A DNA stretch of 64,000 nucleotides from an uncultured Desulfomonile sp. GTDB lineage: Bacteria; Desulfobacterota; Desulfomonilia; Desulfomonilales; Desulfomonilaceae. The notes under the pieces are model-generated. The model made no database searches, was not told where the DNA came from, and was given only the letters and a program-made list of their open reading frames with translations. The translations under genes and the position numbers were made by a program. Of this stretch, positions 28,796 to 56,844 are shown piece by piece. Location of the stretch: positions 1 through 64,000 of the forward strand of contig CAJBEZ010000033.1 of the NCBI GenBank assembly GCA_903952205.1, in the 5' to 3' direction. The first letter of the stretch is position 1; every line of letters begins with the position of its first letter.

Positions 28796-30685
28796 ATGAT
28801 CAATTTGGGAGGAACTACGCAACTGCACTCCTTCAAGTTAAATAAAATGGTATTATTGTTCGTTATTGTTGGGGTTTTTTGCTGTTCATCTTCTGCGCTG
28901 ACTGCTGAAAACGAGCCAGGTGGCGTTAGTTCTTTTCTGGGGGTCAAGAAAATGGATCGGGTTGGAAAGTCGAAACCTCAGCCCGACGGTGTTCCTGACG
29001 CGGTTTTTTCCATGTCTTTCAGTACCCCTCTAGCTGATAAGAAAATAGAGGAAATTGAAATCAAGTCATCAAATCCGTCCAAGATGTGGACATCCAACAT
29101 TGGAGAAACCAATTCGGATTTTTTGGGGGTTGCGCTGGCTAAGAGCCCTTCTGATATCTTGAACAGAAAAGAAGGTGAACTGAAGTCACGAACTTTGAAT
29201 GACCAGAATTTACTGTTTTTTGTGACTGATGACGGTCTTTTTTCCAAAGAAAGCCGTAACTATCAGATAAGAGTGGTCTTTACCGATGGGGAAGTATTCT
29301 CGAGCAAGGTCATAGAGGATTCTACCCCAACGGCGGCGCCGGGGACATCAAGCCAAGGTGTCTACCCTGTCAGAATGTCGGCGTTTTTGAAAGGTATTTC
29401 AAATTATGACGCGGTTGGTCCAGACAAGAAAATCGAGGGAGATAACAAGCCGGACGGCCTGTTTGTATTGACTCTGGAGACTAAGGACAGGGAAATTGCC
29501 GCCATAGAGATCAAAAACATAGAAGGTGAAACGGCTTCATGGGACACTATCCCAAATAGCGGGAATCCTCCTATAGGAGTCGCTCTGACATCAGACCCCA
29601 CCAAACTGGTTAATGAACTGGACGGATCTTTTAAGATCAGGGTTAAAGACAAGATTGACCTCAATCTGTACATTGCGGACAAAGGGGTTGTAGAAAGAGG
29701 TAAAACAGACTTCAGGATCAACGTCGCTTTTTCGGATGGACAAATCTACTGGGCCAGGGTTGAAAAGGTTTCTGATGTCGACAAGGGCTCCCCGGAACCT
29801 TCGGGGTCAGAAACCAGTAAGAATCAGGTCAATTTCCTTGGCGAGTGGCTGGGTTTTTTCCCTACTGACGCCGTTGGGCCATATCCTGAAATAAAGCCTG
29901 ATGGAAAACCGGATGCGGTTTTCGGATTGGACATAGACGTCAATCCAAAAAACACGATTACTGGTGTTGAAATCAACAGCGTTACCGGGATCGCGAGAAA
30001 GTGGGGCACGTCAGGGACATCACCGGGCGCCTGGGGTTTGGCCGTAGCTTATCAGAGGGCCCCAACCGCGCTTCTGAACAAACCTGATGGATCCATATCC
30101 ATTCCGATAGACGGACGAACGCAATTCTACATTTACGCTTCCGACCCTGGTGACCTGGCCAAAACAAACCAGGAACTTAGAATCATCGTCCGCCTGGGTG
30201 ACGGCTCCTATTACCAGCAAATGGTCAAAAAGGCCCTTGCGACCACTTCGACTGTGGCTCCGGAGACTGAGTCACGTCCAAAAGCCAAGGGCTTGATAAC
30301 CTGTGAGTTTAGAGGTTTCATAGCCGACCTGGTTAATAATTCTACACACCCGGGCAAAGACGGATATCTTGACGGCACTTTCATCGTTAAACTTCAGGTG
30401 GAAGACAAAAAACTTCTCAGGGTTGATGTGACCGGACCAGATGGGTCAATCCAGTGGTCCAGCGACCCTAAAGCTCCTGTGATGTTTTTGGGCGTCGCCT
30501 TGTACCCAAAAATTTATCAGCTCATAAATGTCAAGCCCGGCCCGTTAAGTGTTCCAGTGACAGGCAGGAGAACCATATACCTTTACGCCGCAGACAATGG
30601 CCTATTGTCCGACCCGAAATCCCGATTGACTGTGACGGCCTTTTTTACCGACAAGACTTCATTATCGGCTGATGTAGTCAAGTGA
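28796..30685 (+). CDS. Exported protein made of four tandem ~140-residue repeats
   Basis: A 629-residue protein I do not recognise. After a signal peptide (about 15-37) come four related repeats (roughly 45-175, 192-330, 347-475 and 497-629). Each opens with a PDGxPDAVF-like aspartate/glycine motif (GKSKPQPDGVPDAVF; GDNKPDGLFVL; EIKPDGKPDAVFGL; KDGYLDGTFIV), has a tryptophan and a GVAL segment mid-way, and ends with a YxADxG and xxFxDG strand pair. The domains look all-beta and may bind calcium through the aspartates. Linkers are Pro/Ser/Thr-rich. An outer-surface or periplasmic binding/structural role is inferred. Confidence 0.75.
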   Translation: MINLGGTTQLHSFKLNKMVLLFVIVGVFCCSSSALTAENEPGGVSSFLGVKKMDRVGKSKPQPDGVPDAVFSMSFSTPLADKKIEEIEIKSSNPSKMWTSNIGETNSDFLGVALAKSPSDILNRKEGELKSRTLNDQNLLFFVTDDGLFSKESRNYQIRVVFTDGEVFSSKVIEDSTPTAAPGTSSQGVYPVRMSAFLKGISNYDAVGPDKKIEGDNKPDGLFVLTLETKDREIAAIEIKNIEGETASWDTIPNSGNPPIGVALTSDPTKLVNELDGSFKIRVKDKIDLNLYIADKGVVERGKTDFRINVAFSDGQIYWARVEKVSDVDKGSPEPSGSETSKNQVNFLGEWLGFFPTDAVGPYPEIKPDGKPDAVFGLDIDVNPKNTITGVEINSVTGIARKWGTSGTSPGAWGLAVAYQRAPTALLNKPDGSISIPIDGRTQFYIYASDPGDLAKTNQELRIIVRLGDGSYYQQMVKKALATTSTVAPETESRPKAKGLITCEFRGFIADLVNNSTHPGKDGYLDGTFIVKLQVEDKKLLRVDVTGPDGSIQWSSDPKAPVMFLGVALYPKIYQLINVKPGPLSVPVTGRRTIYLYAADNGLLSDPKSRLTVTAFFTDKTSLSADVVK

Positions 30686-30823
30686 GTTTCCCAAAAACAT
30701 TTCCCGTCCAAAATTGATTTATGACCGTCTTGACATGCGAAGGACCGTTAGCTATTGTCAAATCCGTTTTGATTTCCTGATTTAGTTATTTAAGAATGGC
30801 CGCTCGTCGGATTGGAGGTCACG

Positions 30824-31486
30824 GTGATTGTCGCCAAACCGAAACCATTTCCAGAAGTGGTTGAAATGTTGAAGTATTTTTCCAAGGTTTTGGTTGCGGG
30901 CTGCGGGACTTGTGTAGCGGTATGCCTTGCCGGCGGAGAAAAAGAAGCGGGATTAATGGCGACGCAACTGGGACTTGTTTTTAGAGATCGTGATTTTAAA
31001 ACTTCGGCGGTTACTGTTGAGCGCCAATGTGACCGGGAGTTCCTAGCTTTATTGAAAGAGCACGTTGCGCAGGCCGACGCTGTGCTATCCCTTGCCTGCG
31101 GGGCCGGAATTCAGTTTCTAGCTGAAATGTATCCTGAAAAGCCTGTTTTTCCTGGGGTGGACACAAGCTTCATAGGGGTTAATGAAGGCGCAGGGGTTTG
31201 GGGCGAGCGCTGCAGAGCGTGCAATCAATGCTACCTCGCGTTAACCGGGGGCATCTGCCCTGTTACAATGTGTGCCAAGGGACTTCTGAACGGACCCTGT
31301 GGAGGTCCTTCCAAAGGAAAATGCGAGACAAGTCCTGATCGTGACTGCGCATGGGTTCAGATAATTGATCGACTTAAAAGCCAATCCCGTCTTGATATTC
31401 TCTCAAAGATTACACCCCCTCGAAATTACAGTCTTGACGAGAACCCCGCAAAGTTGGTTCGGGAAGATTATCAAAAAAGATTTTGA
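30824..31486 (+). CDS. MetV-like methylenetetrahydrofolate reductase C-terminal domain protein
   Basis: A 220-residue cysteine-rich protein of the MTHFR_C (MetV) family: a VAGCGTCVAVCLAGG motif near the N-terminus, a central ACGAGIQFLAE, then RCRACNQCYLALTGGICPVT and CAKGLLNGPCGGPSKGKCE. MetV normally partners MetF in MetFV-type methylene-THF reductases of acetogens and sulfate reducers and carries Fe-S clusters and/or zinc. No metF is next to it here. GTG 30824 with GGAGG five bases upstream is preferred over TTG 30812. Confidence 0.85.
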   Translation: MIVAKPKPFPEVVEMLKYFSKVLVAGCGTCVAVCLAGGEKEAGLMATQLGLVFRDRDFKTSAVTVERQCDREFLALLKEHVAQADAVLSLACGAGIQFLAEMYPEKPVFPGVDTSFIGVNEGAGVWGERCRACNQCYLALTGGICPVTMCAKGLLNGPCGGPSKGKCETSPDRDCAWVQIIDRLKSQSRLDILSKITPPRNYSLDENPAKLVREDYQKRF

Positions 31487-43500: not shown

Positions 43501-45759
43501 ATGGTTAAAATATCACGTCGAGATTTTGTCAGAATTGCTTCCCTAATGGGAGGAGTATCTCTGTTTGCGGGTTGTTCGTGGTTGGACAAGGAAAACTTGG
43601 TCCCTGAATTTATTAAGGGCGCTCCTGCTGTAGATCCGATAGAGACCATACTGGGCATAGAAACCAAATATACCGTCTGCGCCCTCTGTCCGGGAGGATG
43701 TGGAATAGGTTGCAGAATAGCGCAGGGAGCGTTGGTCAAAATAGGAGGCAACCCGTATCACCCGGTTTCAGCGGCTGAGCCTCTTGGTTTTGTCACTCCC
43801 CTGGAGAAAGCGGCTAAGGTTGGGGCGTCTGTTTGCGCTATAGGATCCAGCGGAATCCAGACACTTTATGATCCTTTCAGAATTCTGAAACCTTTGAAAA
43901 GGTCAGGTTCCAGAGGATCCGGTAAATGGCTGGCAATATCATGGGAGCAGGCGGTTCATGAGATAGTTGGAGGCGGTAACTTATTCGGTGAAGGAAAGAT
44001 TGAAGGGCTAAAAAATATAGGAGCCTCCGGCTCGGGCGCGACTGTGTTGGCGGGTAGAACAGATTGGGGCTCTCAACTCTTCCTGGAAAGATTCGTTTCA
44101 GCTTTCCCAGGGGCGGTTCTTGCCCGTACTGATGATGTCCTCTGGAACAACCGATTAGGAAAAGTGGCCAAAACGGTTTTTGGCCCGGAGTCCGGGTTGT
44201 TGGACGCTAACTACAAGACGGCCAAGTTTTTGCTTGGTTTCGGATTTACTCCTCTGGACTCTGGAAAACCATTGGTTTCGATTGCTCGAGAATTGGCTGA
44301 CTCGCGCCTTAAGGCTTCTTGCATGTCATGGATCGTGGTGGATCCAAGGAATTCGACTTCTGCGTCCAAAGCCGATCAGTGGGTCGCAATTGTTCCTGGA
44401 ACCGACGCTAGATTGGCCTTGGCTATTGCCAAAGCTCTTTTTGAAAAACACCCCGGTGATTTGAAGCGCATTGACGACAAGTTGAAGAAGTTGGCGGATT
44501 CTTGGTCCATGGGATCATTGGTTGAGCCGTGTGGAATTGGCCCCGAAATTGTATACCACATAGCGGACCTGATGGCTAAAGCAGGAGAAAGAACCGCCGC
44601 ATTGTTCGGTCAGGCGATTTTGCGGCAACCTGACGGGGAACTGACCGCAAGATTAATATTGTCACTAAATTCCATGGTTGGGTCTGTGCCCGGTTCTGGT
44701 GGCTTGCTGTGTCTAAACGAAGGATTATTGAATGAGTTGAGAAAATCTCTTACTGGATCAGGCCTCTCGAAACTTGAGCCTCTTCCTCTGCCGAATGAAA
44801 ACAGGTCTGTGATTTTGTGGCGGGCCGACCCTGTTTATTACACCCCCGAGGTAACCGCCAAGGCTCTTTCAGACATAAAGGCCAACCCTCTCATTGTGGC
44901 GATAGATAACGTCATAACCGAAACAGCCGCTCTTGCGGACTATATTCTTCCGGACACCACTTATTTGGAAAGATGGGACCTTTGCGCATTGCCTCCCTCC
45001 TGCGATAAGCCGGGTTACGGCTTCAGATCACCCGTAGTGGGAGGTTTTAACTCCGAATCCGGCGATTATTTCCCAATATTGCCCGAAAATTCCACAATGG
45101 AAGACATTTTGATCAGGCTTGGGGCTTCTTCAGGATTACCTCAATTTGAACCGGATAATAATTGGAAACGGCCCAATTCCTGGGGATTTTATCGTAAGGT
45201 TTTCTCAGCGTCGGCGAATATTTTCGATCAGCAATCGTTCTTCAATGAAATCATACAGCGTGGAGGTATATTCCCTAAGGACACACCGAAGGCGCTGCAT
45301 AAACAGTCAAACGGCGGCGTAGTGAATGTTGTGGATCAGGCCATATCTTTGCCATCTACAAATTCCATTGCGAAAGATGAACTTTGGTTGGTGACATACA
45401 CCTTGCCTTTTCATCGTTCCCCAAGGTCTGGAATCAATTCATGGCTTCTGGAAATTATACCAGAGAACAGGCTCGTCATGAATTGGGACGATGCGGACAA
45501 ACGACATATCAGGCAGGGAGATTTTGTAACTATTCAAAGTTATGATGGCAAGGCTTCATTCAGAATCAGGATACAGTTAGCCTCCGGCATCCGCCCTGGG
45601 GTCGTGGCGATGGCTAAAGGCTTCGGTTATCAGGGGGCAGGCGCTGGCGCCAGCTTAATTGACGGGCTATCCAATCGGGATAAAACTCGAGGAGCAGGCT
45701 TAAACACTCAAATTCTTGGAATTGAGTTCCCCCTAAAGGTAAAGGTGAAGAAGACTTAA
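43501..45759 (+). CDS. Molybdopterin oxidoreductase-family catalytic subunit (Tat-exported)
   Basis: A 752-residue member of the DMSO-reductase superfamily with a Tat signal (SRRDFVRIASLMGGVSLFAG) and an N-terminal [4Fe-4S] motif Cys60-x2-Cys63-x3-Cys67...Cys112, followed by GIQTLYDPFRILKPLK. Cofactor-binding segments such as TAALADYILPDTTYLERWD and the C-terminal VVAMAKGFGYQG barrel are present. At the place where a Cys or Ser usually binds molybdenum (after SAFPGAVLART, about residues 198-215) neither is seen. It may therefore be a QrcB-like non-catalytic subunit or use an aspartate. Substrate not predictable. Confidence 0.85.
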   Translation: MVKISRRDFVRIASLMGGVSLFAGCSWLDKENLVPEFIKGAPAVDPIETILGIETKYTVCALCPGGCGIGCRIAQGALVKIGGNPYHPVSAAEPLGFVTPLEKAAKVGASVCAIGSSGIQTLYDPFRILKPLKRSGSRGSGKWLAISWEQAVHEIVGGGNLFGEGKIEGLKNIGASGSGATVLAGRTDWGSQLFLERFVSAFPGAVLARTDDVLWNNRLGKVAKTVFGPESGLLDANYKTAKFLLGFGFTPLDSGKPLVSIARELADSRLKASCMSWIVVDPRNSTSASKADQWVAIVPGTDARLALAIAKALFEKHPGDLKRIDDKLKKLADSWSMGSLVEPCGIGPEIVYHIADLMAKAGERTAALFGQAILRQPDGELTARLILSLNSMVGSVPGSGGLLCLNEGLLNELRKSLTGSGLSKLEPLPLPNENRSVILWRADPVYYTPEVTAKALSDIKANPLIVAIDNVITETAALADYILPDTTYLERWDLCALPPSCDKPGYGFRSPVVGGFNSESGDYFPILPENSTMEDILIRLGASSGLPQFEPDNNWKRPNSWGFYRKVFSASANIFDQQSFFNEIIQRGGIFPKDTPKALHKQSNGGVVNVVDQAISLPSTNSIAKDELWLVTYTLPFHRSPRSGINSWLLEIIPENRLVMNWDDADKRHIRQGDFVTIQSYDGKASFRIRIQLASGIRPGVVAMAKGFGYQGAGAGASLIDGLSNRDKTRGAGLNTQILGIEFPLKVKVKKT

Positions 45760-45984
45760 CTGATCGATATTCCCCCCGTTTATTGATTTGATCGGCTTCT
45801 TGATATTTTTAGCGATTCGATATTATCAAACAAAATCTGTCCAATCTCAAGTTCAATTCAGTGAACATCCAAAAGCAAAACGTCTTATAATGTAATACCT
45901 CATTTTTTAAATGTATCATTTTCATTTGACATAAGATATTATCTTTGTTACTAGGTTTGCTCAGATTCTACGATGGGGTAGCTC

Positions 45985-47493
45985 ATGTTCTCTTTAAAAT
46001 TGAGAAGGCCTAGCGCTTCAGTAAAAATTCCTAATCATACAATGTTATATGGTATCGTTGTGGCCGCATTAGGTTCATTCATAACTATGGGAGCGGCTAT
46101 AAGGCTTTATGAGCTAAAGGAATTTTTTCCATTAAGACTTCCCGATCAATTTAATGAATTCTTGCTGAATTACGTGCCCTTCATGTTTGGTGTTTTTATA
46201 ACTACTGTGGCCGCCGGAGCTGGGGTCATTGTGGGGTTAAACTGGCTTTTCGGGGGTTTCAAACGGATTTTCAAACTGAAACTGACATTTCAGAATCCAA
46301 AAGAGTTCTATCGACTCAATGATGTCACAGAAGGCCTCCGGGAAGGTAAAATAATAACTTATGAGTCAGCTCCTTCCACGATGTTCTATTTTTTGGGAAA
46401 AATCTGGTCCAATGCGAGATACATATCCCAAATTCCGGGACATATCATCAAATGGAACACAAGATTCATCTGGAAGGTAATAGCTGTAGGCATAGTAATT
46501 CATTTTCTTTTTAAGATATTACAATCAGCTCCTGATTACTTGGCCTCTCTGGGGCTAGGCGCCAACTACCTACTTCCATCGCCTTATCCTTTCTACAAAT
46601 TGCTTCTGATCGTGTGTCTCTTAAAATTGTCTATTTCCTTCCTGTTGATCCCTCTCAAGAAACCTCAGGCGGCAAGGGAGATGGACTCAATGATAGTAGA
46701 AGGAAAAGGACATCCGTCAATATTTTTCTCTATCATTGAAGAGGGCGCCAAGATCTTCTCCCATAGGGGATTGCCTAATAGAGTTATGAGATCTAATCCT
46801 ACCCAGGCTTCCGACGGGGAAACCACTATAGGGTCTTTGATAGAGAGCTTTCCGGAATACGTTAAAACCTCAAACAGGGTAGCGGCGCTATTATGTTTGA
46901 CCCTTGGTTCCGTGATGTGCCTCGTAGGATTCCTGCAGCTTATTCTCATGCAATACCCTAGTTTTTCTGTGGCGTACGATGACTTTTTTAGGATTTACAT
47001 GTTCACCGCTCTGGTCGATATCCTACTAAATGTTCTGGTAATACTTTTTGGTAAGAGCTTCCTTGATCAGGCGCAGGCGCTAATGGCGGTCTATCGTTTC
47101 AAATCCAACCTGGTCTATGTGGAAGCAAAGGGAAATCTTAACTCAGACGGTATTAACGGTCCTAAAAGAAGCAAAGTCGTCCCGTCAGGTTTTGAACCTC
47201 TGAGAGAAGGGGCATTTAATGTTAGGTATTTCTCCGCTGAGGCAATATCAGAATCAGTCACTCCAGAAGGACCACGTGAGCTGATCGGCTTATGTATATC
47301 AGAGGAACTCACAAAACGGGTCACCAACTTAAAGTATATGCCATTTCAGGTTCATTTTGTCGAACGATATCCAAGTTCATGGTCTGAAGTTGAAGTGATA
47401 GAGGCAAACGATACGCCTGTTCCAGCGACTCGTGAATCTCAAATTGGCGCTGTGCTGTCGGAAGAACACCAAACGGCGTGTACAGGCGCATAA
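45985..47493 (+). CDS. Unknown multi-pass membrane protein, 502 residues
   Basis: No family recognised. About six membrane helices are visible (about 20-42, 64-92, 160-180, 203-226, 298-322 and 335-355). Between helices 4 and 5 lies a charged soluble loop, and after the last helix a ~145-residue soluble domain rich in strands (FNVRYFSAEAISES; MPFQVHFVERYPSSWSEVEV). It is preceded by an AT-rich 225-base gap with no gene, so it probably has its own promoter. It may be co-expressed with the PA14-like protein gene that follows. Confidence 0.65.
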   Translation: MFSLKLRRPSASVKIPNHTMLYGIVVAALGSFITMGAAIRLYELKEFFPLRLPDQFNEFLLNYVPFMFGVFITTVAAGAGVIVGLNWLFGGFKRIFKLKLTFQNPKEFYRLNDVTEGLREGKIITYESAPSTMFYFLGKIWSNARYISQIPGHIIKWNTRFIWKVIAVGIVIHFLFKILQSAPDYLASLGLGANYLLPSPYPFYKLLLIVCLLKLSISFLLIPLKKPQAAREMDSMIVEGKGHPSIFFSIIEEGAKIFSHRGLPNRVMRSNPTQASDGETTIGSLIESFPEYVKTSNRVAALLCLTLGSVMCLVGFLQLILMQYPSFSVAYDDFFRIYMFTALVDILLNVLVILFGKSFLDQAQALMAVYRFKSNLVYVEAKGNLNSDGINGPKRSKVVPSGFEPLREGAFNVRYFSAEAISESVTPEGPRELIGLCISEELTKRVTNLKYMPFQVHFVERYPSSWSEVEVIEANDTPVPATRESQIGAVLSEEHQTACTGA

Positions 47494-49685: not shown

Positions 49686-50432
49686 CTATTCTGAATATTT
49701 CACAGCCACCAAAAAAAGACCTTGAGGTCTTGCTATGGGTCCTGCCTTGGACCTATCGCATGCTCTAAGGATATCGGCAAAATCTCCGACAGTAATTTTC
49801 CCTAGCCCTACCCTGACTAATGTTCCAACCAGCGACCTCACCATGAAACGCAAAAAACCAGAGCCTTTGATTGTGAACGAAAAAGTATTTCCGACGTCAT
49901 CTTTTTCCCAAAACGCTTCATAGATTTTTCTAACGGTCGATGGAGTTCCCGAGGTTGGCGCCCCAAAAGAAGAAAAATCATGAATCCCAATCAATAATCT
50001 AGAGGCCTCCTGAAGTTTGCCCAAATCAAGAGGATATGCAATCTCCCAGAAGTATAGTCTTTTCAAAGGCGATCTAGTCTGTTGATTGAGAATTTGATAA
50101 CGATAAGTTTTTGAGATGGCTGAGTGCCTCGCGTGGAAATCATCTGAAGCCGCTGAGACGTTCAAAATGCAAATGTCGTCTGGAAGTAGAGAATTGAGGG
50201 CCTTTTTTAGATCATCAGTCGAGTGTTTCCATGGAACCTCAATGTGGATCACTTGACCGATCGCATGAACTCCGGCGTCTGTGCGCCCCGCCCCAAAGAC
50301 TACTATTCTTTCACGAAAAATCCTTGATAAAGCTATTTCAATCTCCCCCTGAACAGTAGTAGCGTTGGGCTGTAGCTGCCATCCATGATAATTGGAGCCA
50401 TCGTATTCCACAACGGCCTTAAGTTTTGGCAT
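49686..50432 (-). CDS. truA: tRNA pseudouridine(38-40) synthase
   Basis: A 248-residue TruA with the catalytic Asp52 in GAGRTDAGVHAIGQV, YDGSNYHGWQ near the N-terminus, and the FSFTIKGSGFLRFMVRSLVGTL motif near the C-terminus. It makes pseudouridine at positions 38-40 of many tRNAs. Full length. First in position of a minus-strand set with pdxT and pdxS; the gap to pdxT is 31 bases. Confidence 0.96.
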   Translation of the reverse strand: MPKLKAVVEYDGSNYHGWQLQPNATTVQGEIEIALSRIFRERIVVFGAGRTDAGVHAIGQVIHIEVPWKHSTDDLKKALNSLLPDDICILNVSAASDDFHARHSAISKTYRYQILNQQTRSPLKRLYFWEIAYPLDLGKLQEASRLLIGIHDFSSFGAPTSGTPSTVRKIYEAFWEKDDVGNTFSFTIKGSGFLRFMVRSLVGTLVRVGLGKITVGDFADILRACDRSKAGPIARPQGLFLVAVKYSE

Positions 50433-50463
50433 GGTTGTTCAATGTTCGCGGAACCCTGAAAAT

Positions 50464-51036
50464 TTAATCCCTATTCGAGATCATCTCCAGAAAGTATGCG
50501 TGAAGTCTGCTGTCGTCGGTCAGTTCAGGATGGAATGAAGTCGCCAGGAATCTGCCTTGCCTGACAGCGACAATAGAGCCGTCTTTCAATTGGCACAGGA
50601 CTTTAACCCCGGAACCAACTCTTGTAACTCTGGGAGCCCTTATAAAAACACCCCTAAAAGGACCTCCCTGCAAATTTTCGATCTCGAGGTTTTCTTCAAA
50701 ACTATCCACCTGGCGACCAAACGCATTCCGTTCGACCGTCATGTCTATCAGACCCAGGATTGGTTGCCGCATTCCGACATCCCTGGCCATCAGGACCAAC
50801 CCTCCACACGTCCCCCAGATTGACCCGGATTTGGCGAATTCTAGAATCGGATCTACTAGGCGATAATCAGTCGCCAGTTTCCCAATGGTAGTGCTCTCTC
50901 CCCCTGGAATGATCAAGCCGTCAAGTCCGTTGAGATGTGACGGCAACCTGACTTCTCTGACCTTTACACCCAATTTCCGGAGGCAAATGCTGTGTTCTTC
51001 GAAATCTCCCTGTAAAGCAAGGACTCCAATATTCAT
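50464..51036 (-). CDS. pdxT: Pyridoxal 5'-phosphate synthase glutaminase subunit
   Basis: A 190-residue class-I glutaminase: MNIGVLALQGDFEEH, IPGGESTTIGKL, the nucleophile Cys77 in WGTCGGLVL, and SFHPELTDD with the catalytic His and Glu. It supplies ammonia to PdxS for vitamin B6 synthesis. Start ATG 51036 has GGTGAG upstream; a longer frame to 51072 would overlap pdxS. Confidence 0.96.
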   Translation of the reverse strand: MNIGVLALQGDFEEHSICLRKLGVKVREVRLPSHLNGLDGLIIPGGESTTIGKLATDYRLVDPILEFAKSGSIWGTCGGLVLMARDVGMRQPILGLIDMTVERNAFGRQVDSFEENLEIENLQGGPFRGVFIRAPRVTRVGSGVKVLCQLKDGSIVAVRQGRFLATSFHPELTDDSRLHAYFLEMISNRD

Positions 51037-51043
51037 GAAACAC

Positions 51044-51925
51044 TCACCATCCTCGAACGGCAAGCCTTTCACCTTCAGCCAACTGTGTGACGCCTATACC
51101 TACCATTGCCTCACCGAGCCCCTTGCTGACTTCAGCCAGTATTTGGGGATCGTTGTAATGAGTTACAGCCTTGACTATCGCCTTTGCCCTGGCAGACGGG
51201 TTGCCGCTCTTGAAAATGCCGGAACCAACAAAGACCCCATCTACGCCTAATTGCATCATCAATGCGGCGTCAGCGGGAGTAGCTAGGCCTCCGGCGGCAA
51301 AATTTACAACCGGCATTCTTCCTTTTTGCGCAGTCTCTATCACCAGATCAAGCGACGCTCCGATTTCCTTTGCATAAGCCGCAAGCTCATCTTCTCTCAT
51401 CGCGCTGATTCTTCGAATTTCTCCGATTACTGATCTGGCGTGCCTGACGGCTTCAACTACATCGCCTGTTCCAGCCTCGCCCTTGGTCCTGATCATTGCG
51501 GCGCCTTCGGCTATCCGTCGTAAAGCCTCTCCAAGATTTCGGCAGCCACAGACAAACGGCACGTTAAACTTCGTTTTATCGATGTGATTCTGCTCGTCCG
51601 CAGGCGTTAGTACTTCACTTTCATCTATATAATCTACGCCGATCGCCTCCAGAATTTGGGCCTCTACAAAATGTCCTATCCGGCATTTCGCCATTACAGG
51701 TATCGTCACAGACGCCATGATTTGCGCTATGAGTTCCGGATCACTCATGCGAGCCACACCACCATGGGCCCTAATGTCGGCGGGGACTCTCTCCAGGGCC
51801 ATAACGGCGCATGCCCCTGCATCCTCTGCTATCCGGGCGTGTTCAGGCGTAACCACATCCATTATTACGCCGCCCTTCAGCATTTGAGCGTGTCCACGTT
51901 TAACTGTTTCTGTTCCTTTTTCCAT
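51044..51925 (-). CDS. pdxS: Pyridoxal 5'-phosphate synthase subunit PdxS
   Basis: A 293-residue TIM-barrel synthase, highly conserved: [55 protein letters not shown] with a catalytic lysine, and [20 protein letters not shown] with [11 protein letters not shown] (phosphate site). It builds PLP from ribose-5-phosphate, glyceraldehyde-3-phosphate and ammonia. It ends 7 bases before the pdxT start. Confidence 0.98.
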
Positions 51926-52076: not shown

Positions 52077-52505
52077 CTATTTCTGCTCTTGAATTTTCTT
52101 AATTTCCCCTTCGATGAAGTTCCTGAACGAACCATCCACGGCCATGAGAGTCTCCCATTCATCAGCCAGTTTTGAAGGCTTAATTTTGCATATCCAGCCT
52201 TCTCCATGGGGGTCCGAATTGATCTTTTCGGGTTCATCTTCCAGGGCCGTGTTAACCTCAAGCACTTCACCAGACACCACGGCATAAATTCGTCCGACCC
52301 ATTTTCCCGACTCTATGGATCCATACGGTTTACCTTGTGTCAAAGTGTCGCCTTCTTCGGGTAGATCCACAAAAGTGATTTCTCCCGCCTGCTTGGAGAT
52401 GAATTCACCCGCGCCGGTAATTACTACATCGCCATCCAGTTTGGCCCAATAATGGTTGGTTTCAAACTTTAGATCATCCGGGAAAAAGTAACCTTCCAAC
52501 TCCAT
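52077..52505 (-). CDS. GcvH-like lipoyl-binding protein next to HdrBC
   Basis: A 142-residue protein with the glycine-cleavage H fold. The lipoylation lysine is Lys68 in GSIESGKWVGRIYA, preceded by FVDLPEEGDTLTQGK and followed by SGEVLEVNTALEDEPEKINS and GWICKIK. No gcvT, gcvP or lipoate ligase is adjacent; instead hdrB, hdrC and two hdrA-like genes lie directly upstream on the same strand. This recalls the lipoate-binding proteins (LbpA) of sulfur-oxidising sHdr systems, so a role as sulfur or thiol carrier for the Hdr proteins is plausible. Confidence 0.85.
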   Translation of the reverse strand: MELEGYFFPDDLKFETNHYWAKLDGDVVITGAGEFISKQAGEITFVDLPEEGDTLTQGKPYGSIESGKWVGRIYAVVSGEVLEVNTALEDEPEKINSDPHGEGWICKIKPSKLADEWETLMAVDGSFRNFIEGEIKKIQEQK

Positions 52506-52587
52506 TTTTATCTCCTACTGCTAAGAAAAATCGTATTTCATCCTAAAAGACTGTCCAAACAGACTTAATTGACTAATTGAGAAAAAC

Positions 52588-53463
52588 TCAGCCTTCAACA
52601 ATTTCCAGAAGTTCTTTGGGTTTAATCCTATTAAGTTTAAATCCTAACTCCTCTGATGTCATCCCAAGCGCAAGTCCTAAAACTTGAGGATAGTAAACCA
52701 CTGGCGTCTTAAGGTCAATACCGGTTGATTTAGCGATTTTTTTCTGTTGCCCCTCGTACATTACATTGCAGAACGGACAAACCAAAACCAATGCATGCGC
52801 TCCAGAAGCGGACACTTCCTGCAGCTTGCGAACCGCCATGGCGTTGGCCACCTCTTCGGACATGCCCAGTAATCCTCCACCGCAGCAATCCAAAAGAGAC
52901 GGATAGTTTATCACCTTTGCGCCCGTAGCTGTTATCAAATCCGACAAAGTCCTTGGGACCTCCGGTGAATCAAAACCTACGTTTAATTCAGACGGTTTCA
53001 AATAATGGCATCCGTAATGGGGCGCCAGCGTCACACCATTTAACGGCCTGGTCACCGCTTTGGCAATGCCTTCTATACCTATCTCTTCCCAGAGCAACCT
53101 CATGTAATTTCTTACTTTGACATTTCCGTCCAGACGCAGCCCGAGTGGTTTCAATCGCCTGTTGATCTTTTCGCGTATTTCAGGATTGGTTCTTACCTGA
53201 TGGGCAACCTCGTTTAAAGTTCCTGCGCACGCGTTGCATAATGCGCAAATGTCCAGGTCTTCCCTCTCCGCTAAAGCAAGATTTCTGGCGGCTGTCACCA
53301 TCATATCTTCAACATTGAGTGATTTGAGAGGAAAACCGCAACAACCAAACTCTTCAATATCCCGAAAAGTTATCCCAAGCGCTTTCGCTGTTAGTCTTGC
53401 AGAAACTTCGTAGTTCAGATTTCTTATCGGAACTGTGCATCCTAAATATAAAAGGGTTTCCAT
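52588..53463 (-). CDS. hdrB: HdrB-like CCG-domain protein
   Basis: A 291-residue heterodisulfide-reductase subunit B homologue: two CCG domains with EEFGCCGFPL and LLDCCGGGLLGM, plus LGCTVP, CALCNACAGTL and HYGCHYLKPSE cysteines that build the noncubane [4Fe-4S] clusters. It carries the disulfide- or thiol-reducing site. It is 21 bases downstream of hdrC. Confidence 0.93.
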   Translation of the reverse strand: METLLYLGCTVPIRNLNYEVSARLTAKALGITFRDIEEFGCCGFPLKSLNVEDMMVTAARNLALAEREDLDICALCNACAGTLNEVAHQVRTNPEIREKINRRLKPLGLRLDGNVKVRNYMRLLWEEIGIEGIAKAVTRPLNGVTLAPHYGCHYLKPSELNVGFDSPEVPRTLSDLITATGAKVINYPSLLDCCGGGLLGMSEEVANAMAVRKLQEVSASGAHALVLVCPFCNVMYEGQQKKIAKSTGIDLKTPVVYYPQVLGLALGMTSEELGFKLNRIKPKELLEIVEG

Positions 53464-53484
53464 AAAAATTACCTGCTAAGAACT

Positions 53485-54003
53485 CTACGAATTGTGGAAT
53501 GTGGAGCTATGACCGGGGTCTTTTTCCACAGTTTGGTCCGGCAGTAGAACATCAAAATCCTCGGCGTGTTCTATGATCGGAGGTAGACCAATCTTCAAAC
53601 GTTTTTCGTTCTCAAATTCTCCAACTTCATAAAGTCTTCCATGTTTCTTGAGAAGTGAGCGTTGCGCTGTAAGTCCAGGCGGGATACACGCTTCCTGAGC
53701 GGCAAGATTCTTGATGGCGTACATCACCTCTGTAAAACGCACGTTCTGTGGGCATACCTCCTGACAACCGTAACACGATGAGCACAACCATATAAAATCG
53801 CTTTCCAGGACTTGTTTCTTCATGCCCAAAAGAGCCATTCTGATTATTTTTCGGGGATCATAACGCTTGTCGATGGGTTGAATGGGGCAAGCCGCTGTAC
53901 ATGCCTTGCACCCAAAGCAGGCCTTTAGTCCCTCTCCTCCAGGTTGTTCAGCCACCCTGTGCTTGAATTCCGGATCGAGTTCGTTGAGATTAATTTTGGG
54001 CAT
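53485..54003 (-). CDS. hdrC: HdrC-like iron-sulfur protein
   Basis: A 172-residue soluble protein with two [4Fe-4S] motifs, CFGCKACTAACPIQPID and CSSCYGCQEVCPQNVRF, and the helical FTEVMYAIKNLAAQE segment typical of HdrC. It passes electrons from the HdrA-like proteins to HdrB. There is no membrane HdrE-like domain, so the complex is expected to be cytosolic. Confidence 0.93.
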   Translation of the reverse strand: MPKINLNELDPEFKHRVAEQPGGEGLKACFGCKACTAACPIQPIDKRYDPRKIIRMALLGMKKQVLESDFIWLCSSCYGCQEVCPQNVRFTEVMYAIKNLAAQEACIPPGLTAQRSLLKKHGRLYEVGEFENEKRLKIGLPPIIEHAEDFDVLLPDQTVEKDPGHSSTFHNS

Positions 54004-54043
54004 GGCGTTGTTCCCTTGTCGTAGTGTGACAAAAGTCTCATTT

Positions 54044-55609
54044 CTAATAATGGTGGATCCGACTTTTCAGCTTCATTATTGCTTCTACTACTGTTTCAGG
54101 AGTGTTACCAGCTACGCTCGTAAATTCAAGCCTTTCCGGATCAAAACCCGCCTGATTAAGGATTTCGGCCGCGTAACCAACTCGTCGTTCCGCCAGAGTT
54201 GAGCCATAGATCGACGCGCAGTTGCCCTTGAAACATCCAGCGACTATTACTCCTCGAGCGCCGTCCCTAAAGTATTCAAGAAGTGAAGCGGCGCTCACAT
54301 TCCCTGCGCATTGAAGGGCTATTATTTCAACATCGGATAATATCCCTGCTTTGATTTTTGCTGCGGCCTGTAGCCCGGATTTGGCGCAAACAATTAACTT
54401 GATGGGTCTGGAAACTGTTTCTGTTGAATGCGTGAAATCTCCCAAGGGACGAATCTCTATTGCGCCCATTGGGCATTCTACAACGCACACGCCACAAGCT
54501 CGACAGGATAATGGATCTATTTCGGGCCGTGAGATAAATCCAATTGCTCCATGGGGACACAACCTCAAACATGTAAGACAGAACGTGCATTTGCCATGAT
54601 CAACCGAAGCGACCCCCTTGCCGGACAAATCGGGTTTTTCCATCGACGCTTTCAGGATGGCAACCGTTACAGCCTGCACATCAGCGTTAAGCGATTCAAT
54701 ATCAAAGACTCCTCTGGATGGGCCCACTGCGTAAATTCCGGCCTTCGGGGTTTCCACCCCCTGGAATCTTGATGACTCTGGTTGCAAATAGGGGGCAAAC
54801 GCGGGGGAAGACGGGATAAGATTCAGGATGGGTTTGAGAGAATCCGTGGGGCCGAGAATTTCATCGAACACCATTATGTCAGGCGTCAACTCCATTTGCT
54901 CGCCGAGTAAAGGCTCGACAAAAGTTATCACTGAGCCATTCTCATCCTGATTTATCACAGGGTCGCCGTTGTCAAACTTGAAAAAGACAACCCCTCTCTG
55001 ACGATGATATCTAAATCTGGCGTCAAGTCCTGGAGACGCCACTTTGAGGTTACGCGTGAACACGTACGGCTGAAGTCGGTCCTCTGTTTCGAGGCGATCC
55101 AGGACAGAAACCAGTGTTTCAAACTGAGAAACTTCAGATGAACCCTTTAGGTCAAAAAAGAAAGCGATGTGGCGCCACCGATCTTTTCGCTCCGGCAATC
55201 TACCGCCAGATTTTAAGTAATCTTTAAATTCCGAAAGATTGTAGATCGATTTCGAATCATTAATTGCAAAGGCGTTAATCTTTGATTTTCTATGTGGAGG
55301 CTGTGCGGCTACTATGTAACCAAACTTGGAATGGGTCACGTTCGATGAAGTCTCGATCTGGACGCTAAAATTCCCCATAAATCCTGATATATTCAGTATT
55401 AAACCCTGAACAATCTCTGCTTTTGGGTTTGCGGGATATTTTTCATTCGGTTCAAACAACACTGTAGAGTCAAAAGCATTGTTTTTGAGAACTTCAGCAA
55501 TCCTTATCCCGTATTCGTCGCCCCCCAGGATAAGGACTTTGCTGGACGCCTCTTCTTGAATCCTGTGCACGCCTTTTAAAAATACGGATTGAGTAACCCG
55601 TCCGCTCAC
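54044..55609 (-). CDS. HdrA-like protein fused to an MvhD-type domain
   Basis: A 521-residue protein. The N-terminal half has a degenerate nucleotide fold (KVLILGGDEYGIRIAEVL) and a region without family signatures. Residues about 345-395 hold two ferredoxin motifs, CTFCLTCLRLCPHG and CRACGVCVVECPMG. The C-terminal ~130 residues match MvhD/FrhD-type hydrogenase iron-sulfur domains (IIALQCAGNVSAASLLEYF, GCFKGNCASIYGSTLAERRV) but lack the CNWC motif. It resembles QmoB in plan though shorter. Start GTG 55609 has GGGGAG upstream, three bases after the previous stop. Confidence 0.82.
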   Translation of the reverse strand: MSGRVTQSVFLKGVHRIQEEASSKVLILGGDEYGIRIAEVLKNNAFDSTVLFEPNEKYPANPKAEIVQGLILNISGFMGNFSVQIETSSNVTHSKFGYIVAAQPPHRKSKINAFAINDSKSIYNLSEFKDYLKSGGRLPERKDRWRHIAFFFDLKGSSEVSQFETLVSVLDRLETEDRLQPYVFTRNLKVASPGLDARFRYHRQRGVVFFKFDNGDPVINQDENGSVITFVEPLLGEQMELTPDIMVFDEILGPTDSLKPILNLIPSSPAFAPYLQPESSRFQGVETPKAGIYAVGPSRGVFDIESLNADVQAVTVAILKASMEKPDLSGKGVASVDHGKCTFCLTCLRLCPHGAIGFISRPEIDPLSCRACGVCVVECPMGAIEIRPLGDFTHSTETVSRPIKLIVCAKSGLQAAAKIKAGILSDVEIIALQCAGNVSAASLLEYFRDGARGVIVAGCFKGNCASIYGSTLAERRVGYAAEILNQAGFDPERLEFTSVAGNTPETVVEAIMKLKSRIHHY

Positions 55610-55611
55610 AA

Positions 55612-56844
55612 CTACTCTCCCCTCATGGTGCGATCCAGATATCGTTTGATCTGGGAAGCAGCCAGTATCGCGTGAGAAACGCAGGCGCTTATGGACTTGG
55701 GGCCTTGCGCCGCGCCGGCGACAAAGATTCCTGGATGTCCTGCGTCAACGCCATTGTCATCGGAACCGATGAATCCGTCGCGGTTTTTCCATAGGCCAGG
55801 GAAGCTCCCAGGCAAATCAGGATCTCTTGGGACAATGCCAACGCTTAGAACGACCATATCAAATAGCGCCATTTGCCTTGTTTCATCTCCGCCGTGGTAC
55901 ACAACTCTCGGAAATCCGTCTTCATCAGAGTGGATTTCCGAAGGCATTGCCCTAATGAAATTAATATCACTTTGGGCCCGATCCAATGTTCTGTCAAATT
56001 CCCTCTCGAAAGTCTGAATGTCCATGTAAAAGATTGTTAAATTTATATCGGGATATCTGTTTTTTATTAGACGCGCCAACCGGATGGATACTCCACAGCA
56101 AATTTGAGAACAATAGTTTGTTCCTGATCTTGGATCTCTGCTTCCTACGCATTGTATGAAAGCAATTGATTTAGGCGTTTCGCCAAAAGCCGCTGATTGG
56201 AAATTTCCTGTTCGCAATATCGAATCAAGTTCCAGTGAAGTGATAACTCCAGGGACTCTAGGGTAACCAAATTTCAGTTTTTGAGTGGGGTCATAAGGCG
56301 AAAAGCCGGTACATATTGCTATTGAAGCGACTTCTGTTTCCACTTCCCTGCTTTTTTCCTGGAGTTCAACGGCTCCCTGAGGACATATCTGGGCGCAGAT
56401 TTCGCAGTGGACGCCAATTGAATTGAGGCATTTCTCGTTCGAGATATACAGCCTGGAATCGAACGCCGGATAAAAGAGCGCCCCTTCAACCGGACAGACC
56501 TTGAGACATAATCCGCAGTCATCACATTTATCGCTAACAATCATAGATTTTCGTTGCAGAATCATTGCCTTAAAATCACGGCCATTTTGTGTCAATGAAT
56601 CAACAGTGGAACTTACCATAAGATCCACGTTCTCAGCTTTATGAACCTTGCTGAGATAATCTTCGAGTTGACAGGCGCCGCACTTCTGGCATGTTTGAGT
56701 GGCCTTGCACGCAAAATTTGACACATGGCCACCCATAAATGGGGCCTTCTCAACGATAGTCGAACTGATGCCGAGACATGAGAGTTCCCAGGCCAGGCTA
56801 AGGCCGGTGATTCCCCCACCTATTATGAGCGTTTCTTTTTTCAT
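55612..56844 (-). CDS. HdrA/QmoA-like FAD and Fe-S protein
   Basis: A 410-residue flavoprotein: FAD Rossmann motif (TLIIGGGITGLSLAWELSCL), a cysteine group Cys46, 52, 55, 58 (TCQKCGAC), two ferredoxin motifs (CDDCGLCLKVCP; HCEICAQICP), and the HdrA hallmark FIQCVGSRDP with YCSQICCGVSIRLARLIK. The length fits QmoA and other stand-alone HdrA-like proteins. It and the next protein form the flavin part of the Hdr complex, candidates for electron bifurcation or confurcation. It is the first gene of the minus-strand set. Confidence 0.9.
   Translation of the reverse strand: MKKETLIIGGGITGLSLAWELSCLGISSTIVEKAPFMGGHVSNFACKATQTCQKCGACQLEDYLSKVHKAENVDLMVSSTVDSLTQNGRDFKAMILQRKSMIVSDKCDDCGLCLKVCPVEGALFYPAFDSRLYISNEKCLNSIGVHCEICAQICPQGAVELQEKSREVETEVASIAICTGFSPYDPTQKLKFGYPRVPGVITSLELDSILRTGNFQSAAFGETPKSIAFIQCVGSRDPRSGTNYCSQICCGVSIRLARLIKNRYPDINLTIFYMDIQTFEREFDRTLDRAQSDINFIRAMPSEIHSDEDGFPRVVYHGGDETRQMALFDMVVLSVGIVPRDPDLPGSFPGLWKNRDGFIGSDDNGVDAGHPGIFVAGAAQGPKSISACVSHAILAASQIKRYLDRTMRGE

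Follow-up and report, generated by a model that had tools for sequence, protein, structure and literature searches.

A lipoyl carrier gene in an Hdr operon of an uncultured Desulfomonile suggests protein-bound lipoic acid as an Hdr disulfide

Results

A GcvH-like lipoyl carrier encoded with split HdrA, HdrC and HdrB

We analyzed a stretch of 64,000 nucleotides from an uncultured Desulfomonile sp. (positions 1 to 64,000 of contig CAJBEZ010000033.1, assembly GCA_903952205.1; hereafter the window), in which an operon of heterodisulfide reductase (Hdr) genes includes the gene of a lipoyl carrier with the GcvH fold, here called GcvHx. The presence of this gene in the Hdr run, in a genome in which neither glycine decarboxylase nor a 2-oxoacid dehydrogenase E2 was found, suggests that bound lipoic acid is the disulfide of this Hdr. 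The system is real and conserved, a role in glycine cleavage is unlikely, and lipoyl-linked electron transfer by Hdr is its probable function. Judging from the genes and their motifs, we lean towards an HdrABC/MvhD-like electron-transfer complex that would use the lipoyl group of GcvHx as its disulfide partner, and not the heterodisulfide of coenzyme M and coenzyme B (CoM-S-S-CoB).

Five intact open reading frames (ORFs) run on the minus strand from 56844 to 52077, in the order HdrA-N, HdrA-C+MvhD, HdrC, HdrB, GcvHx, with gaps of 2, 40, 21 and 82 bases between successive frames (Table 1). An earlier note on this DNA had described two HdrA-like proteins, HdrC, HdrB and a lipoyl protein with an ESGK site on one strand with gaps of 2 to 82 bases, and both the ORFs and the Pfam and NCBIfam profiles agree with that description. 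The 410-residue flavin adenine dinucleotide (FAD) protein, which that note called QmoA-sized, resembles QmoA in size only, and its best NCBIfam matches are HdrA2 models; it also matches HdrA (phmmer, 1.1e-66) and the HdrA-like protein 6tjr of Hyphomicrobium denitrificans (1e-36), and it keeps all four cysteines of the CVGSRD...YCS..CC motif. The 521-residue protein consists of a degenerate part at the N-terminus that resembles thioredoxin reductase, two [4Fe-4S] motifs and a C-terminal MvhD (FlpD) domain, and its orthologs share 27-63% identity. To speak of a split HdrA is fair, because the first ORF aligns with residues 142-555 of HdrA and the second matches by sequence only residues 428-633 plus MvhD; a predicted model of the second, of moderate confidence (predicted local distance difference test [pLDDT] 77), is closest to whole HdrA chains.

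The HdrB-like protein aligns over its full length with solved methanogen HdrB (phmmer, 9sfi_C at 9e-58 and 5odc_B at 2.5e-55), and the cluster-binding C, CC and CxxC cysteines match those of the solved protein in both CCG motifs, so that two motifs predicted to ligate non-cubane clusters are present. The lipoyl site of GcvHx is likewise intact (E65-S-G-K68-W-V-G71). Its AlphaFold model (pLDDT 94.6) is closest to the solved H-protein 1onl (template modeling [TM] score 0.85) and places the lipoyl lysine K68 in a hairpin, between strands 60-66 and 70-74. Lipoyl-K68 would be the only disulfide cofactor encoded beside HdrB.

The genome assembles lipoate and holds no other identified lipoyl protein

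The source assembly (4.78 Mb, 99.99% complete) was searched for the enzymes that usually carry or make lipoyl groups. The earlier note had seen no glycine cleavage genes nearby, a remark that becomes stronger genome-wide: GDC-P (PF02347) was found neither in this genome nor in six others of the genus. GcvHx is the only GCV_H protein of the genome, no E2 (PF00198) was found in it, and none of its proteins comes near the cut-off for LipA. Weak LipA-like matches on contigs C60 and C36 are BioB/RimO-like by sequence, hence not lipoyl synthases.

The only LplA/LipB-type protein in the genome is a lipoate-protein ligase, Lpl, with PF21948 and a fused DUF116 domain. Downstream of its gene, in the same orientation, come genes for a geranylgeranyl (GG)-reductase-type FAD protein (LipT-like) and for two radical S-adenosylmethionine proteins, which score best against the NCBIfam models of LipS1 (222 bits) and LipS2 (219 bits). 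A lipS1-sLpl-lipT-lipS2 pathway has been shown to serve LbpA (PMC10332631), and by their profile matches the genes for sLpl, LipT, LipS1 and LipS2 stand together in this genome, on the contig of the operon; the search for lipoate-assembly genes that the earlier note had proposed was thus rewarded. With this pathway complete and GcvHx the sole lipoyl protein identified (a statement that covers GCV_H and E2, the searches having included neither GcvT nor PF00364 domains of proteins other than E2), GcvHx is therefore predicted to be lipoylated, on K68.

Other observations on lipoate genes stand beside these. The Lpl-DUF116 fusion (about 520-530 amino acids) has orthologs at loci L105, L106, L107, L114 and L115, and is conserved through the family and also found in other families. 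A second candidate ligase in the window's genome (G000) on contig C108, a PF03099 match, proved to be BirA (TIGR00121). The best match to dihydrolipoyl dehydrogenase in this genome, an 890-residue protein (L239:412-3084, contig C37), scores below the cut-off and slightly higher as a general FAD oxidoreductase; its N-terminal half resembles dihydrolipoyl dehydrogenase or mercuric reductase and its other half has no assignment, making the protein a candidate for re-oxidising dihydrolipoyl GcvHx. No dihydrolipoyl dehydrogenase gene lies next to Lpl in the window's genus.

GcvHx belongs to a family outside ordinary GcvH

Two peptide patterns drawn from the ortholog alignment were run against 84,980 species genomes and yielded 270 relatives; the best 80 of these, which were fetched, come from Desulfomonilaceae, Desulfarculaceae, Syntrophaceae, Actinomycetota, Bacillota, Chloroflexota and one Thermoplasmata archaeon. 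K68, W69 and G71 (a KWxG site) occur in 92/92 aligned members; at the corresponding positions, most ordinary GcvH have K, then A or T, and S (KWVG vs KAxS). Since the ESGKWVGR pattern served to fetch most of the 92 rows, the uniformity of this signature is partly a selection effect; the separation in the tree ignores those columns. When the lipoyl-site columns and long branches were left out, a branch with 99/99 support parted the 92 KW rows from 26 ordinary and other GcvH, and with all rows included ordinary GcvH formed a 100/100 clade. By these alignments GcvHx falls outside the ordinary GcvH clade.

The same tree bears on a plainer explanation, namely that GcvHx is an ordinary or relic GcvH parked by hdr genes, its glycine cleavage system (GCS) having been missed or recently lost. 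The protein does score above the cut-off of the TIGR00527 GcvH equivalog (118.5 vs 115.85 bits). This explanation is nevertheless very improbable: the clade is separate even without the lipoyl-site columns, the family is conserved across several families and phyla, and relatives with a working GCS hold a second, ordinary GcvH beside GDC-P as well as GcvHx beside hdr. The earlier note had named as damaging a lipoyl protein that clusters with ordinary GcvH and a gcvTP operon elsewhere without its own gcvH; the protein stands apart in the tree, and no gcvP occurs in its own genome or in the six others of the genus. An ordinary GcvH or a lost GCS is thereby largely refuted.

Some GcvH proteins serve in lipoyl transfer only, and since lipoylation of GcvHx is deduced from genes, the protein could also serve the Hdr complex as a structural subunit or regulator, in unlipoylated or octanoylated form. 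We hold this to be improbable, as Lys68 is present in every aligned member and the genome, in which GcvHx is the only GcvH and no E2 was found, retains its lipoate-assembly genes.

Two further groups of lipoyl-type proteins came to light. A second KWxG protein (L110:7260-17751, L111, L117 and L118, in genomes G002, G004, G009 and G010) has a CCG/ferredoxin protein on one side and, on the other, a multihaem cytochrome c/NarI-like membrane protein. The locus also encodes an LplA of its own and proteins resembling lactate racemase and D-lactate dehydrogenase; lipoyl-linked lactate respiration is possible there. Long GcvH-like proteins of 200-300 amino acids (L225 on G047:C10, L223 on G048:C10, L215 in G010, L218 in G009, L229 in G007), some in tandem arrays of four, are weakly related to NCBIfam GcvH_rel_desulf and form a separate deep clade in the tree.

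The pairing with HdrB-type proteins is conserved across phyla

Neighbor conservation, a check that the earlier note had suggested, proved strong. Genes for HdrC, HdrB and GcvHx are adjacent in 13/14 family genomes with GcvHx (a count that includes the window's own) and also in G046, G048 and G050, which belong to other families; because this adjacency recurs, the arrangement is not due to chance. Among the 80 loci, which were fetched by sequence alone, 69 have a CCG-domain gene within 3 kb of gcvHx, with a median gap of 127 bases, and the outer flanks of the fetched loci (343 kb) hold just 3 such genes. The pairing spans Desulfobacterota, Actinomycetota, Bacillota and others, and it is kept while the type of CCG partner varies: it is either HdrB, accompanied by HdrC and HdrA, or a GlcF/HdrD-like protein together with an FAD-linked oxidase. 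In G056 and at L187 gcvHx adjoins Lpl-DUF116/LipT/LipS-type genes, and at L199 it lies within 10 kb of them.

A further recurrent partner is MetV. In the family's genera other than the window's, hdrA is preceded by a metV-like gene, either immediately or with a divergent metF in between. The operon is headed by metV(-metF) in seven other Desulfomonilaceae genomes and at L139/L149, metV and metF occur together with it in G011, G015 and G050, and at the Bacillota loci L176 and L204 the order is metV-metF-gcvHx-hdrC-hdrB. The window has a metV-like gene, whose product is 67% identical to the operon copy of G010, preceded by the gene of a secreted protein of unknown family. Orthologs of the latter come before metV-hdrA at L085, L087, L093 and L094, and we therefore regard 28796-31486 as the displaced head of the block. 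An in-frame TGA in metV, considered as a selenocysteine codon, is its terminal stop. The joint presence of metV and metF in an hdr-mvhD operon, the mark of Type IV methylenetetrahydrofolate reductase (MTHFR), is absent from the window; the genome also holds a separate mvhD-metV-metF set.

With MetV, and in some genomes MetF, encoded in the operon, and with the H-protein fold kept, GcvHx might instead be a GCS-derived carrier of one-carbon (C1) or aminomethyl groups that works with MetVF in folate metabolism and handles no electrons. Such a role is quite improbable, given that GDC-P is absent from genome and genus (GcvT lay outside the searches), that every member has KWVG and not KAxS at the lipoyl site, and that the constant partner is HdrB, not MetF.

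Table 1. Positions of the operon genes and related features
Feature	Location	Strand	Evidence
HdrA N-terminal/FAD part, 410 amino acids	window 55612-56844	-	HdrA2 model, N-terminal part, 1.7e-81
HdrA C-terminal half + MvhD, 521 amino acids	window 54044-55609	-	FlpD/MvhD PF02662 5e-23; PF00037; HdrA2 model, C-terminal half
HdrC-like, 172 amino acids, two [4Fe-4S] motifs	window 53485-54003	-	TIGR03290 3.7e-28; Fer4_8
HdrB-like, 291 amino acids, two CCG domains	window 52588-53463	-	PF02754 x2; TIGR03288 5.7e-69
GcvHx, GcvH-fold lipoyl carrier, 142 amino acids	window 52077-52505	-	PF01597 (GCV_H) 4.5e-34
MetV-like protein (DUF5981)	window 30812-31486	+	PF12225 1.8e-35
Secreted protein of unknown family, ~600 amino acids	window 28796-30685	+	55% identity over 617 columns to operon copy
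Lpl-LipT-LipS1-LipS2 cluster, same contig as operon	G000:C33:139129-143827 (L104:3130-7828)		Profile matches
Lpl fused to DUF116	G000:C33:142244-143827 (L104:6245-7828)		Lipoate-protein ligase

Other neighbors were also recorded. In six Desulfomonilaceae, the window's genus not among them, gcvHx is followed by the gene of a small conserved protein with a hydrophobic, probably membrane-embedded, N-terminal segment and no Pfam match (L087:10441-10935, L088:12206-12730 and four more). Downstream of the operon, on the same strand, lie truA, pdxT and pdxS (window 49686-51925), which adjoin it in much of the family with no evident functional link. A molybdopterin oxidoreductase (QrcB/TtrA-like) followed by a 502-residue protein with no Pfam match (window 43501-47493) is kept beside the locus in the genus.

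Discussion

Lipoyl-linked electron transfer by Hdr

In methanogens, the disulfide is cleaved by the two non-cubane clusters of HdrB. For the window's operon, electron transfer between HdrB and the lipoyl group would be the simplest link, and GcvHx is best read as carrying electrons, not sulfur. Lpl (with DUF116), LipS1, LipS2 and LipT would load lipoate onto K68, as their genes suggest; the lipoyl arm, in physical contact with HdrB, would bring its disulfide or dithiol, S-S/(SH)2, to that protein's pair of non-cubane [4Fe-4S] clusters, to be reduced or re-oxidised there; and electrons would pass along HdrB-HdrC-FAD (HdrA)-Fe/S-MvhD to a partner. This partner would most likely be MetV/MetVF-linked C1 metabolism or a respiratory chain. 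We infer the direction of the flow, and its other end could be MetV, the quinone system or nicotinamide adenine dinucleotide (NAD) in its reduced form, NADH.

At the sites of E356 and K409 of the Methanothermococcus thermolithotrophicus HdrA, the window protein has D207 and an arginine, the latter shared by all Desulfomonilaceae operon orthologs read. A Glu and a Lys at these sites are given as the criterion for HdrA bifurcation in a passage of PMC9430772. The HdrA flavin lacks this signature, and bifurcation is therefore not predicted at that flavin; from these residues, simple electron transfer appears more likely than bifurcation.

Several observations weigh against this proposal. The LipS1 and LipS2 scores lie below their NCBIfam cut-offs (222 vs 230 and 219 vs 270 bits), and a dihydrolipoyl dehydrogenase gene adjoins Lpl in several relatives, so that NAD-linked turnover could matter too. 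In the window's genus metV lies 20 kb from the operon, and metF is not adjacent but elsewhere; in G011, gcvHx is located apart from the hdr genes. Some CCG partners are GlcF-like, a type with no established disulfide chemistry. Finally, according to the relevant part of PMC9430772, the Hdr-type MTHFR of Sporomusa ovata did not respond to free lipoate or dihydrolipoate; the same part of that paper reports no trial of a protein-bound lipoyl group with this enzyme.

Relation to known systems

A partnership of lipoyl proteins with Hdr is already known, and the window system probably works like sHdr-LbpA (Hyphomicrobium denitrificans, Thioalkalivibrio), in which lipoyl LbpA is essential (PMC6067878). 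In both, a GcvH-like single lipoyl domain is encoded with Hdr-like genes, among them an FAD-HdrA without its other domains, and with LipS1/LipS2/LipT/Lpl maturation genes. The earlier note had drawn on this likeness to propose a lipoyl-bound sulfur or thiol substrate. In a pathway of the LbpA kind, sulfane sulfur would sit on the lipoyl arm of GcvHx, and its oxidation by the Hdr proteins would yield sulfite, or the reaction would go the other way; beyond the shared gene pairing and maturation type, the match of HdrA to 6tjr and the dsrA found in the genome, which also bears out the impression of a sulfate reducer, speak for it.

We consider such a sulfur pathway unlikely all the same. LbpA has two strictly conserved cysteines near its N- and C-terminus, some archaeal LbpAs excepted (PMC6067878); in the GcvHx alignment no column has a cysteine in more than 34/92 members, 18 members have none at all, and C106 is the only one in the window protein. 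We took two HdrB, two HdrC and nearby sulfur transferases (TusA, DsrE) to mark sHdr. The operon encodes one HdrB and one HdrC, and no gene for TusA, DsrE (DsrE3A included) or rhodanese was identified around the cluster or in the windows examined from relatives. The extra HdrA-MvhD protein is no part of sHdr, the link is to MetV, the hosts are sulfate reducers, Lpl is fused to DUF116, and across several phyla the partners of the family are metVF or FAD-oxidase genes. The common maturation pathway points to shared ancestry of the lipoylation route, not to the same substrate. GcvHx is set apart from LbpA by cysteines and gene set, the tree rows being the KW family and ordinary and other GcvH; because the LbpA features tested fail, we regard the GcvHx system as a distinct form of the partnership. 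Of the earlier proposal, a thiol/disulfide carrier fits better, and the specific sulfur analogy is unsupported.

Returning to lipoyl-linked electron transfer, the Type IV MTHFR MetVF-HdrCBA-MvhD (Moorella, Sporomusa) resembles the window system in having MetV, HdrA with an MvhD-like domain, HdrB and HdrC in one operon, and its second redox partner is likewise unidentified (PMC8760232, PMC9430772); unlike it, the window system adds a lipoyl protein gene, often has no MetF alongside and lacks the E/K bifurcation residues. With the methanogen HdrABC-MvhAGD it shares a full-length HdrB with all cluster cysteines, the FAD domain of HdrA and the [2Fe-2S] domain of MvhD, whereas here HdrA occupies two genes, hydrogenase subunits are absent and a lipoyl protein would replace CoM-S-S-CoB. 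The Ehe cluster of Culexarchaeia (HdrBC, HdrA2B2C2, GcvH) also encodes GcvH with Hdr genes, and a role for it as disulfide carrier towards HdrB has been suggested (PMC9723716); its context is an archaeal membrane hydrogenase, and the portion of that paper drawn on here makes no argument from lipoate assembly or an absent GCS. The glycine cleavage H-protein shares the fold and lipoyl hairpin of GcvHx but differs in clade, in the residues at the lipoyl lysine and in its GDC-P partner, which is missing here.

Implications

Bacterial HdrABC complexes are widespread and their disulfide substrate is unknown. The present genome resembles a natural knock-out, in which genes for GcvP, E2 and LipA were not found and lipoate assembly is kept together with one lipoyl protein encoded next to HdrB. 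If the pairing is true, it would offer a testable substrate for bacterial Hdr complexes, explain the failure of free-lipoate assays, and add, to the part that lipoic acid plays in carbon and sulfur chemistry, a role as electron carrier in sulfate reducers. More speculatively, and with the chances somewhat against it, the KWxG family, which spans several bacterial phyla and one archaeal lineage, may in general take the place of the CoM/CoB heterodisulfide where these coenzymes are lacking. As a protein-bound disulfide it would couple CCG-type [4Fe-4S] enzymes (HdrB, HdrD/GlcF-like) to MetVF, to FAD-linked 2-hydroxyacid oxidases and to quinone-linked cytochromes; were this so, many bacterial Hdr complexes would have their missing redox partner in this family.

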